From Acidobacteriota bacterium (GTDB lineage: Bacteria > Acidobacteriota > Holophagae > Holophagales > Holophagaceae), in the NCBI GenBank assembly GCA_016192145.1, contig JACPUT010000011.1:1-64000 (forward strand): a DNA stretch of 64,000 nt. Reading direction: 5' to 3'. Under the pieces are notes generated by a model. It did not search any database. It was not told the origin of the DNA and saw only the letters and a program-made list of their open reading frames with translations. The translations under genes and the position numbers were made by a program. Below, piece by piece: positions 32,168 through 61,064 of this stretch. Within the stretch, counting starts at the first letter, position 1. The number at the start of each line of letters is the position of its first letter.

Positions 32168-32845
32168 TCAGTTGGACAACCCGCGGATATCCCCGGCGCT
32201 GATGCGCTGGATGCCTTCGGCCGTGGTGGCCTTCAGGCGCCCATCATCTTCCCAGCCCAGGCAGACGCCCTGCCCGCCCTCCCAGCGAAAGGGGTGGCCT
32301 TCGGCGGGCCAGCGGAAGGCTGGTGGCGAGATGGGCTCCAAGCGCTGCCACCGGTCGAGGATCGCCAAGGCGAGTTGGGTGCGGTCCAGGGCCTGGACCC
32401 CCAGATCGGCCAGACAGGCCGCCGGGAAGGCCCGACCCGGGAGCTCCGGGGCCGCCGCAAGGTTTACCCCCAATCCCAGGATCAGGCGGCTCCCCACCCG
32501 CTCGCCGATGATGCCCCCCAGCTTCACCAGGCGGCCATCTTTCCGGGCCACGAGATCATTGGGCCACTTGAGGCCAAGCTCGACCCCCGTGGGCGCGAGG
32601 GCCGCGATCACCCCATCCATGGCCCGCTGGAGGAGGATCCCGGGGGGGAGGTCGGGGGGTGCGAGGCTCACCGAGAGCCAGAGTCCCTGCCCCTCTCCGC
32701 TCTCCCACCGGTGCCCCTGCCGTCCCCTTCCCTCGGTCTGGGCATCGGCCATGACAGCGCAGGGGTGCAATTCCGGGTGGCGGCGCAGGAAGGTCTGGGT
32801 GGAATCCACCCGGGCCAGCCGGATGAGGGGGATGGGGCCCACCAT
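32168..32845 (-). CDS. birA: Biotin-[acetyl-CoA-carboxylase] ligase
   Basis: 225 residues, catalytic and C-terminal domains only, with no DNA-binding winged helix, so it modifies carboxylases but does not repress. Motifs: RVDSTQTFL, TEGRGRQGHRW (biotinyl-AMP loop), LKWPNDLV, KLGGIIGER and LGLGVNL. ATG 32845 is the natural start because before insertion of the element at 32848-33175 it overlapped the coaX stop as TAATG. The insertion has removed the coaX-derived ribosome site, and no clear Shine-Dalgarno remains directly before the ATG, so expression may be reduced or driven from within the element. Confidence 0.93.
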   Translation of the reverse strand: MVGPIPLIRLARVDSTQTFLRRHPELHPCAVMADAQTEGRGRQGHRWESGEGQGLWLSVSLAPPDLPPGILLQRAMDGVIAALAPTGVELGLKWPNDLVARKDGRLVKLGGIIGERVGSRLILGLGVNLAAAPELPGRAFPAACLADLGVQALDRTQLALAILDRWQRLEPISPPAFRWPAEGHPFRWEGGQGVCLGWEDDGRLKATTAEGIQRISAGDIRGLSN

Positions 32846-32847
32846 TA

Positions 32848-33175
32848 GGGCCTGTTCATGAATAAATTTGCCATTTGCGGGGGTCGTCGGCGGAGTAAGC
32901 CGGCGGCCGACCGAGGGTGTATCGGGAATACAGGGAGGGGAGGCTCCATCTCTGGGAGCCGAAGGCAACCAGGAGCGGCGCGCAGCGCCGCGTTCGATGG
33001 AGCCAACGCTGGATTACGACAGCCGCCGACCCTCGCCCGAAGGGTTGCCCCCTCTTCGCGCCCCCAGCCGCGTCGTGCCGCTTGCACGATGTCACCACAT
33101 CGCGCTGCGCGCCTCTCCTTGCTGGATGGCGCGAATAGGGGGCAACAAATGGCAAGTTTATTCATGAACAGGCCC
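32848..33175. mobile_element. MITE-like non-autonomous element, 328 bp
   Basis: Terminal inverted repeats of 30 bases begin GGGCCTGTTCATGAATAAA at both ends, with one mismatch (base 20). The element is flanked by the direct repeat TTA at 32845-32847 and 33176-33178. Removing the element and one TTA restores coaX and birA joined as TAATG. No transposase is present; apparent open frames on both strands begin and end in the repeats and look non-coding. The 3-bp T-A duplication recalls some IS5-family members, so an IS5-like transposase elsewhere may mobilise it (inference). The interior has a GGCGC/GCGCC stem. Confidence 0.9.
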
Positions 33176-33961
33176 TTAGCCCTGGTTCTTGAGCCAGAGG
33201 ATCCGGAGGCCCTCCAGGGTCAGATCCGGGGCGATGTGCTGGATGTACTTGCTGTGCTGGGCGATGACCCGGGCCAGGCCACCCGTGGCCACCACGGCCG
33301 CGCTGGGGTACTCCTCCCGGAGCCGCGCGAGGATGCCATCCACCTGGCCCACGTAGCCGTAGAACAGGCCCGACTGCATGGCCTGCACGGTGTTGCGGCC
33401 CACGAGCCGCTCGGGTTCGGTGATCTCGATGCGGGGCAGCCGGGAGGCGCGCTGGAAGAGCGCCTCGGCGCTGATCTTGAGGCCGGGGGTGATGAGGCCG
33501 CCCAGGTACTCCCGCTTCTCGTTCACCACATCAAAGGTGGTGGCCGTGCCGAAGTCCACGGCGATCAGGGGCGCCCCATAGGATTCGAGGCCCGCCACCG
33601 CGTTCACGAGGCGGTCGGCGCCCAGTTCGGCGGGGTTGTCGATGGCGATCTTGAGGCCGGTCTTGATGCCGGGCTCGATCCAGAAGGGGCTCACGTTGAA
33701 GTAGGCCTTGGCCCAGCCTTCCAGCACGGGATGGAGGGGGGGCACCACGGAGGAGATGACGAGGCGGGCGATCTCATGGGCTTCGATGTTCTTGTGGCGC
33801 AGCAGGGCCAGCGTGGAGAGGCCGTACTCGTCCACGGTGCGCTCCCGGCTCGTGGCGAGGCGCCAGGAACAGAGGAGGGGTGCCTTCGGCCCCTTGGACA
33901 GGTCGAAGATCCCCAGGACGATGTTCGTGTTGCCGACGTCCACGGCCAAGAGCAGGCTCAT
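33176..33961 (-). CDS. coaX: Type III pantothenate kinase
   Basis: 261 residues of the ASKHA-fold CoaX family, which phosphorylates pantothenate in the first step of coenzyme A synthesis. It has LLAVDVGNTNIVLGIFD (phosphate 1), RLVNAVAGLESYGAPLIAVDFGTATTFDVV, YLGGLITPGLKISAEALFQRASRLPRIE and VVATGGLA. The start is ATG 33961 with GGAGG four bases upstream. It was directly coupled to birA before the element inserted; the coaX stop codon TAA is one copy of the target duplication and coding sequence is intact. Confidence 0.96.
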   Translation of the reverse strand: MSLLLAVDVGNTNIVLGIFDLSKGPKAPLLCSWRLATSRERTVDEYGLSTLALLRHKNIEAHEIARLVISSVVPPLHPVLEGWAKAYFNVSPFWIEPGIKTGLKIAIDNPAELGADRLVNAVAGLESYGAPLIAVDFGTATTFDVVNEKREYLGGLITPGLKISAEALFQRASRLPRIEITEPERLVGRNTVQAMQSGLFYGYVGQVDGILARLREEYPSAAVVATGGLARVIAQHSKYIQHIAPDLTLEGLRILWLKNQG

Positions 33962-58756: not shown

Positions 58757-61054
58757 TTAGAACTTGACCAGCTCGCCCAGGGTCTTGAGGCTGATCACCA
58801 GTTCAAGGCGATCCTGGCGGCGGCCCGCCAAGGGCACGCCGGGCAGTTGGATGTGGGTGTAACGCAGTGTATAGGCCACGCAAGGCTCCACGTAGGCGAG
58901 GCCCACCTGGGAGGACGTCACGTATTTGTTGCGCCAGTCATAGCTGACGGCGAACTCCAGTCGGACACGGTCGTCCCAGAACCGCTGGAGGCCACCGATC
59001 TGGATGCCCCGCTGCCGGACGAGGAAGCGATTCAGGCTCGTGGCGAACAGGCTCAAGCTCAACCGGCTGTCCCGGCCCGTGGCCACGTCGGCGCTGAGGC
59101 TCTGGTCGGTTCCGCCCTCCGTGAGATCCGAGGACCGGTGGAAGGAGAGGCGCAGCTTGTCATTGGGTTCCGCGTCCACGTCGCTGTCGAGGCTGGCCCA
59201 CCCCTGCTTGACCCGGCCATCGGCCAGGAGGACGGGCTTCACGTAGTACCGGGTGCTGATCTTCCACCGCATGAGGTCCGCGAAGGCATCGAGCCGCTTG
59301 GACCGCCCGAAGAAATGCTGCTTGAAACCCACTTCGACACTCTGCTCGCCGCTGGCGCTGTCGTTCACGCCGGGCCGGGCATCCAGGGCATCGAAGCGGG
59401 GCACGCGCGCGGCATCGCTGAAGGGCCCCGTGGTGGTGTATCCGAAGAAGGGCTCCACGATGTGCTTCAACTCCCCCTTGTACCCGAAGAGGCTGAAGTT
59501 CTCGAAGACGCGCCCCAACTGGGGTCCGGAGAACCGGATGTGACCGCTGGCCAGGAGGCGCCGGGTGCCATCCCCCTTCACCCGGAAGGGGTCGAAGGCC
59601 GTGCTGGCGTTGGGATCCAAGGCGCCGCCCGAGACGGGGGAGAACACGGCGCTCTCCAGGGTGGCGCCGTACTGGGTGCCGCGGCCCAGCACTTCGGTAT
59701 CCACGCGGAAGGGGCCGACCTGGCCCAACCGGCCATAGAAGCGGAGGTGGGCGTCGCTGCGCGTCCAGGGGTAGGTCACCCCGGGCACCGTGTCGGTGCC
59801 CTCGATCTTGTAGACGAAGCGTCCCGTGCTGAGCCCGCCATCGAGGTAGAACCCGCCGATGGCGATGGGGTAGAGGCGCAGCTGGGCGGTCGGCAGGGAT
59901 TGGCGCCGCAAGGAGGCCGGGAAATCCGGGCTGTAGAAAGGGTCCCCCTGATCCTTGCTGAGGAAGAAGCTCCGGTTCTCGCCGAGATTCAACGAGAGGC
60001 TGCCCCACGTGAAGGCGCGGCCCAGGTACACGGAGGAATCGTAGATGGGCACGCCCAGGCCTCCCACGCCGCGGCCGAAATCCACATCCACGAGGTTGTC
60101 GGAGGACTGATTCACATCGGCCGTGAGCCACCAGCCGTCTTCCCGCTGCCAGACCTCCTTGAGTTGGTATCGATAGCGCCGCTCGTCCAGGCTGCGCTGG
60201 TGGAGGCTTTGCCCGGAAATGCTGCCGGAGTGGGTGGTATCGGGGCGCCACCTCACCTCGCCGCCGCTGAGGAGGCCCTCCCTGCTGAACCAGATGGGGG
60301 CGAGGGTGGCATCGGCTTTGTCGCCGAGGGTCTGGAACCAGTTCAATCCCAGCCCGGGACCGAGGGCGCCACCGAAGCGGAGATCGGGTGGGAGCAGGCC
60401 GGAGCTCCGTTCGGCCTTGGCGGGGTAGAAGCCCCAGGGCAGGTAGATGTGGGTGGGCACGCCGTGGACGAGGACGCGCAGGTTCCGGAACGTGGCGAAG
60501 TGATCAAGGTCCACGTCCATCTTCGATAGCAGGGCCGTCCAGCCAGGCCTTTCCTCAGAGCACGGGGATAGCTCCACCGCGTCGAAGGCCCAGGTGCGCA
60601 GGCCCTTGAAGGTGACCCGGTCGGCCCGGAGGGTCCAACTCGGGGGGAGCTCCATGCGCAGGCCTCGAGCCTCGCCATCGCGGTTCCGCCAATCCATCTC
60701 GAGGAAAGCGCAATGGAGGCGCAGGTCCGGGGCCTCCAGCCGGATGTGACCTTCGGCCCGGATCACCTTCCGGGCGCGGTCGTAGGTGATCTTGTCCGCC
60801 AGGAGCATCAACCCTGATGATTCGATCTTCCCCTTTTCCATGGTCAGGATATCGCCCACGGCGGTGGAGTTCTCCGCCCGGTAGGCGAAGGGCACCAGCG
60901 ACTCCGGGCCTTCATCCAGATCCCAGGGGCGCAGCGGCAGGAGCATCGCCGGGTCCGGTGCTTCCAACGGGATGGGAGCCGGGATGGCCGGCAGCCCCTG
61001 CGCGAGTGCCGGCAGGCCCGCGAGGATCCAGGCGGCCTGAGGCCGGACGTTCAT
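58757..61054 (-). CDS. lptD: LptD-like LPS assembly outer-membrane protein
   Basis: 765 residues. A signal peptide (about 1-20) and an OstA/LptA-like N-terminal part (about 60-170; ILTMEKGKIESSGLMLLADKITYDRARKVIRAEGHIRLEAPDLRL) precede the LptD barrel (200-765) with VHGVPTHIYLPWGFYPAK and many alternating strands, ending LVKF with terminal Phe. LptD inserts LPS into the outer leaflet with LptE. Only one or two cysteines are visible (HCAFLEM, SPCSEER), so the E. coli disulfide pattern is absent. It fits with the LptFG permease in the window. Confidence 0.9.
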   Translation of the reverse strand: MNVRPQAAWILAGLPALAQGLPAIPAPIPLEAPDPAMLLPLRPWDLDEGPESLVPFAYRAENSTAVGDILTMEKGKIESSGLMLLADKITYDRARKVIRAEGHIRLEAPDLRLHCAFLEMDWRNRDGEARGLRMELPPSWTLRADRVTFKGLRTWAFDAVELSPCSEERPGWTALLSKMDVDLDHFATFRNLRVLVHGVPTHIYLPWGFYPAKAERSSGLLPPDLRFGGALGPGLGLNWFQTLGDKADATLAPIWFSREGLLSGGEVRWRPDTTHSGSISGQSLHQRSLDERRYRYQLKEVWQREDGWWLTADVNQSSDNLVDVDFGRGVGGLGVPIYDSSVYLGRAFTWGSLSLNLGENRSFFLSKDQGDPFYSPDFPASLRRQSLPTAQLRLYPIAIGGFYLDGGLSTGRFVYKIEGTDTVPGVTYPWTRSDAHLRFYGRLGQVGPFRVDTEVLGRGTQYGATLESAVFSPVSGGALDPNASTAFDPFRVKGDGTRRLLASGHIRFSGPQLGRVFENFSLFGYKGELKHIVEPFFGYTTTGPFSDAARVPRFDALDARPGVNDSASGEQSVEVGFKQHFFGRSKRLDAFADLMRWKISTRYYVKPVLLADGRVKQGWASLDSDVDAEPNDKLRLSFHRSSDLTEGGTDQSLSADVATGRDSRLSLSLFATSLNRFLVRQRGIQIGGLQRFWDDRVRLEFAVSYDWRNKYVTSSQVGLAYVEPCVAYTLRYTHIQLPGVPLAGRRQDRLELVISLKTLGELVKF

Positions 61055-61064
61055 GAACAGTCCC

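Follow-up and report, generated by a model that had tools for sequence, protein, structure and literature searches.

Bacterial MITEs are usually viewed as deletion remnants of one IS and as confined to a species or genus. The targets of the IS5 subgroup are TA, TNA and YTAR. TA is seldom found in the codons of GC-rich genomes, except that the stop codons TAA and TAG necessarily contain it. Among the described systems closest to the element discussed here, the repeat unit of pneumococcus (RUP) is a highly conserved 107-bp MITE, reported from a single species, for which mobilisation by IS630-Spn1 has been proposed (PMC2229807). In the CIR elements of Caulobacter and Brucella the motif GANTC is conserved, and their description includes no pairing of one end with the other (PMC2229807). 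We report that a 328-bp non-coding mobile element, located between coaX and birA and within the stop codon of coaX in a Holophagaceae genome, is a MITE-like element with IS5-type ends, which is unusual in having a conserved, covarying and strand-symmetric core and in its range over two phyla.

The element occupies positions 32848-33175 of the window (i.e., the whole stretch of 64,000 nucleotides that was analysed) and is on the plus strand in the orientation of our covariance model R1 (see below). Both neighbouring genes are encoded on the minus strand; coaX (33176-33961) was identified as a type III pantothenate kinase gene (PF03309, 1.5e-72) and birA (32168-32845) as the gene for a biotin protein ligase of 225 amino acids (PF03099, 2.4e-10). 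The inverted repeat arms, 32847-32877 and 33146-33176, are 31 nt long and 97% complementary. The left terminal inverted repeat was assigned to 32848-32877 (plus strand), its outer approximately 18 nt being of the IS5 type (GGGCCTGTT...), and the right one, based on the inverted-repeat search and end comparison, to 33146-33175 (minus strand). A TTA target duplication is present at 32845-32847 and 33176-33178, where the right-hand copy is the complement of the coaX stop codon TAA and corresponds to the terminus of the coaX reading frame. Hence, the 30-base terminal inverted repeats with one mismatch and the TTA at both borders, which the original prediction had read from the sequence, were recovered (30-31 nt, one mismatch). 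On the minus strand coaX ends with ...GGC TAA, and rejoining the flanks in silico generates TAATG at the birA start, in agreement with the proposed overlap of the coaX stop and the birA start in the empty site. The claim that the element lacks a transposase also stands: no transposase gene is present in the 328 bp, and the reading frames inside are short, about 100 amino acids, with the palindrome being readable on both strands. Upstream of birA, CAGGCCCTAATG from the element end replaces CAGGGCTAATG of the empty site. The suggestion that birA thereby lacks an obvious ribosome site holds only in part, since the AGG in front of the gene is weak but a similar AGG lies at about the same distance with and without the element.

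The coaX gene was searched for across 71 Holophagaceae genomes and the best 30 loci, including the own locus, were read. In 26 of the 29 loci from relatives coaX and birA abut or overlap (birA start -22 to +28 nt from the coaX stop), in line with the joined genes that had been anticipated for relatives. These 26 relatives without the element rule out a fixed spacer in every homologous locus; taken together with the presence of multiple copies and a fold z score near -11 (see below), they reduce an ordinary spacer common to all relatives with inverted repeats arising by chance, for which we found no supporting point, to a practically negligible probability. The TTA duplication was read from the window alone because the sequences of the relatives differ at the junction. 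The remaining three loci have other insertions at the coaX-birA junction, +279 nt (L056, genome G019), +143 nt (L060, G029) and +157 nt (L070, G044), and insertions have thus occurred repeatedly at this place. CACGAAG- or CACGGAG-type repeats are visible in two of these three. Empty sites were also searched for using the joined flanks of the copies in the own genome, covering the first 8 of 18 flanks (2721 of 6120 bases). One copy (L089, G000:C7 about 535955) is located between nuoC and nuoD in the operon for respiratory complex I, as assigned by eye from the translated flanks, and this junction is uninterrupted in three relatives.

A DNA search identified related copies in the own genome (G000) with 72-87% identity. 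Among ten aligned full copies the outer approximately 25 bases vary from copy to copy, yet the two arms of each copy match one another. With the R1 model (238 positions, the outer 16 bases trimmed on each side) 18 full-length copies were detected in this genome, as expected for a multi-copy element. The match to the window element (32864-33159, 223 bits, E 3.2e-52) is the only R1 match within the window; a third end-like site at 61049-61064, with neither a partner nor a model match, was taken as a chance occurrence and not as a further copy. Copies were found in 54 of the 71 Holophagaceae genomes, representing 9 of 11 genera, and in 45 of 247 Acidobacteriota genomes (23 of 140 genera). The R1 model gave no copy in G001, a 76% complete genome of the same genus, and the distribution is therefore patchy. 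Genome G014 carries more than 20 copies, many of which are near-identical. Some copies adjoin tRNA genes, two in the own genome (L100 and L102, tRNA-like flanks by eye) and one elsewhere (L170, where the tRNA was matched by Rfam).

An exact scan for the core motif returned Geothrix species, Holophagaceae MAGs, Thalassospira sp. HJ, a Rhodobiaceae, a Hyphomicrobiales MAG and others. Full-length R1 matches were confirmed in the Thalassospira, Rhodobiaceae and Hyphomicrobiales records and in two further proteobacterial records (MAG taxonomy as in the depositors' record titles), and the element family thus spans more than one phylum. Six such genomes have 62, 38, 41, 9, 1 and 42 R1 matches, part of which represent one copy counted on both strands. 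No Rfam 15 family matches the element at or near the gathering score, and we found no description of the family in the open-access literature; a published name in Alphaproteobacteria is possible in the subscription literature.

Comparison of the aligned copies and the DNA search further revealed that the window copy is composite. A second repeat, CTCCATC...GATGGAG, forms a 59-bp hairpin nested at approximately 32944-33002 (plus strand); it is absent from the nine other aligned copies of the own genome, while other genomes have it singly or as tandem units, with positions 94-158 of the query matching on their own. The element proper is therefore approximately 270 bp, and the 328-bp unit, correctly bounded by inverted repeats and TTA in the original prediction, consists of this element plus the nested hairpin repeat. 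The earlier reading as an IS5-like non-autonomous unit stood, with both the nested repeat and the covarying multi-phylum family having gone unseen. The family of this nested hairpin repeat of approximately 60 nt occurs alone in many Holophagaceae genomes, and G042 has a row of near-60-nt units (L185, G042:C46:109000-112500). Other nested repeats exist as well: copy L005 holds a different one, and in G014, where many pairs of 18-base ends are 271 bp apart, copies of 313-448 bp hold other hairpins and one pair of ends is separated by 1876 bp.

With respect to target sites, the flanks of the copies mostly conform to YTA-element-TAR, and insertions favour TA. Among 84 copies most have TA flanks with no uniform length of a direct duplication, and an exact duplication is clear for the window copy (TTA) but unclear for the majority of the others. 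When genes beside the copies were called by a simple GC-frame score, 31 of 64 adjacent gene 3' ends were positioned ≤3 nt from the element border. Given the targeting of TA, its presence in stop codons and these gene ends near the borders, the coaX stop appears to be a usual target of the family.

The terminal repeats of the window element continue inwards such that almost its entire length folds. Relative to shuffled sequences the fold has z = -10.8 on the plus and -11.4 on the minus strand, i.e. a palindromic structure far beyond chance. In the RNAalifold consensus, arm A of the core, including the nested repeat, covers 32877-33036, a central hairpin tip CCGAAGG with nearly invariant CC/GG pairs covers 33037-33043, and arm B, an inverted copy of arm A at the level of the motif, covers 33044-33146 (all plus strand; the arms were also supported by pair counts and arm B in addition by the inverted-repeat pair). 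For the ten aligned full copies the consensus comprises 98 pairs, 63 of which show two-sided changes. In a larger alignment of 63 copies, which was fitted to the model and hence favours the structure, 93.7% of the pair cells are standard pairs vs 67.1% in shuffles, two-sided changes occur at 73 of 81 base pairs (0 of 500 shuffles as high), and the covariation score is 0.647 vs 0.173 for shuffled alignments and 0.06-0.11 for slid structures drawn from the same rows. The mean identity among the 53 copies that are <90% identical is 58%, and loop motifs are conserved among diverged copies. The motif of arm A, CAAGGA - hairpin - GACGC, recurs in inverted orientation as arm B; a loose CAAGG...GACGC pattern in arm A plus the reverse complement of arm B is present in 46 of 87 copies, compared with 0 of 1740 shuffles. 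Since, in addition, R1 matches the reverse strand of many copies, both strands can form much the same structure.

Covariation could also arise without selection if, through template switching during replication, one arm was rewritten from the sequence of its partner (quasi-palindrome correction) while the copies diverged. Perfect outer stems of 26-32 bases in diverged copies (e.g. L088, L089 and L092) and few G-T intermediates would be in keeping with such a process. Copying would, however, yield two-sided changes at once, while copies that are at least 97% alike differ mostly one-sidedly, with 10% of the changed pairs being two-sided, and the two-sided share climbs with divergence (10, 14, 38, 64, 77 and 82%, the last value for copies <65% alike; the copy pairs are mutually dependent and the series represents a trend, not a test). 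This trend is at odds with instant arm-to-arm copying and fits single mutations in individual copies with compensation in lineages that keep spreading; moreover, the loop motifs are conserved too. We therefore consider template switching to be an improbable source of the covariation.

Alternatively, the core may function as a structured RNA or as a regulatory element, e.g. a bidirectional terminator, an insulator or an mRNA-stability element between genes, with the IS5-like ends explaining its spread only. The strong covariation, the conserved loop motifs, a fold present in two phyla and the placement of copies at gene ends would all suit such a role, as would a slight excess of G-T over A-C among recent changes (42 vs 28 distinct column types). 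Over all cells, however, G-T and A-C mismatches are nearly equal (98 vs 109), and the orientation of the copies shows no clear bias relative to transcription of the flanking genes (31 opposite, 21 same). Neither a terminator-like nor a sigma-70-like site was found in the window copy, the family is present patchily even inside a genus, and it has no Rfam counterpart. On balance such an RNA or regulatory function seems rather unlikely.

Our preferred reading is that the window element is probably one copy of an old non-autonomous mobile family moved in trans by IS5-type transposases. Transposases with PF13340 (DUF4096, IS5-type) are present in 21 of the 71 Holophagaceae genomes, and the definable ends of these elements mostly read GRG... 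preceded by YTA, e.g. ctaGGGCCTGTTTTCAAAGT in G053. Twelve of 87 element copies match IS5-type ends at 16-17 of 18 positions, compared with never >13 for shuffles in which the first three bases were fixed; these matches join element copies and IS of different genomes, none being within one genome. Close pairs identified by eye are element L173 (GGGCCTGTTTTCAAAGTGGG) with the G053 IS, and element L170 (GAGGGTGTCTGCAAATTC) with the G107 IS. The window copy has GGGCCTGTT in common with an IS of G102 and matches IS5 ends over about the first 9 bases only; its 19-base end has no other occurrence in the own genome. Thus, the ends suggest that mobilisation by IS5-type transposases is likely for the family, and we infer it for the window copy. 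A full-length IS with the same ends had been named as a further expectation, and in relatives the ends of IS5-type elements are indeed of this kind and likewise flanked by CTA/TTA, but we found no IS carrying the 30-base ends of the window copy. Together with the multiple copies and the empty sites, the relatives' IS5-type ends support the classification as an IS5-like non-autonomous unit.

The mobiliser itself is inferred, since the PF13340 profile search gave no transposase match in the own genome, nor did it in G014; the own genome could have had a transposase in the past and lost it since. Across genomes the association between presence of the element and presence of PF13340 is not positive. 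G006 has about 54 PF13340 matches, many near-identical, and no element copy, i.e. an IS5 expansion without passenger. Among the paired 18-base ends of G014 no autonomous partner was found; the 1876-bp pair (L175:1001-2876, G014:C16), considered as a candidate, is an element interrupted near one end by an IS110-like gene (IS110-family transposase assigned by eye).

According to the proposed mechanism, the outer approximately 18 bp of each arm would constitute the transposase site, similar in kind to those that IS5/DUF4096 elements use, and the targets TA, TTA and CTAG would in GC-rich genomes often be stop codons, hence the place in the coaX stop. Between the ends, a conserved two-arm core of approximately 240 nt would adopt nearly the same branched fold from either strand, and this fold may be kept since it is helpful for spreading or for tolerance next to genes. 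Individual copies would decay one-sidedly, with full pairing maintained only in spreading lineages. A more tentative possibility, which we do not favour, is that the core is a selected bidirectional nucleic-acid device (RNA or extruded DNA), a transposon parasite that has a conserved structure of its own, moves between genomes wearing whatever IS5-type ends are available and is common to Acidobacteriota and Alphaproteobacteria. One elaborate fold kept across two phyla while the ends vary points to selection acting on the inner part of a non-coding mobile element, and the family allows a concrete test of whether structure aids movement or tolerance of such elements. Furthermore, a class of operon junctions that are interrupted could be explained by insertions directed to the TA of stop codons in GC-rich genomes.

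Compared with known systems, the element resembles RUP in being short, non-coding, multi-copy and intergenic with IS-like terminal inverted repeats and TA in the target (PMC2229807), and differs in its size (approximately 270 bp), its IS5-type ends that vary among copies, its covarying two-arm core and its presence in more than one phylum. With CIR it shares a distribution as alphaproteobacterial intergenic repeats, 5'-TA termini and a two-arm RNA fold (PMC2229807); unlike CIR it has an end-to-end stem and lacks a conserved GANTC motif, which occurs in 22 of 87 copies, at 0.33 per copy vs 0.66 expected, and separately in 8 of 19 alphaproteobacterial copies. Correia/NEMIS and ERIC are likewise long non-coding repeats that base-pair and have terminal TA, but they have other sequences and are described as a long stem-loop without arms (PMC2229807). 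GTAG/CGTC-tagged REPs and BIMEs are also palindromic units in inverted pairs, with CGTC families being common in Alphaproteobacteria; REPs, however, span 20-40 bp, their stems are short (8-9 bp in CGTC families) and they have no terminal repeats of the IS type (PMC3733652). As in IS5-family MITEs, the ends are of the GRG type, the targets are TA/TNA/YTAR and there is no transposase gene, whereas the interior does not evidently derive from an IS by deletion (we saw no remnant of a transposase) and a single conserved core is combined with many different ends. The element has terminal inverted repeats (as do the other full copies that were inspected), multiple copies with empty sites and no transposase gene of its own, which are general features of a MITE, and it shows covariation supporting a consensus fold, a feature of structured RNA families.
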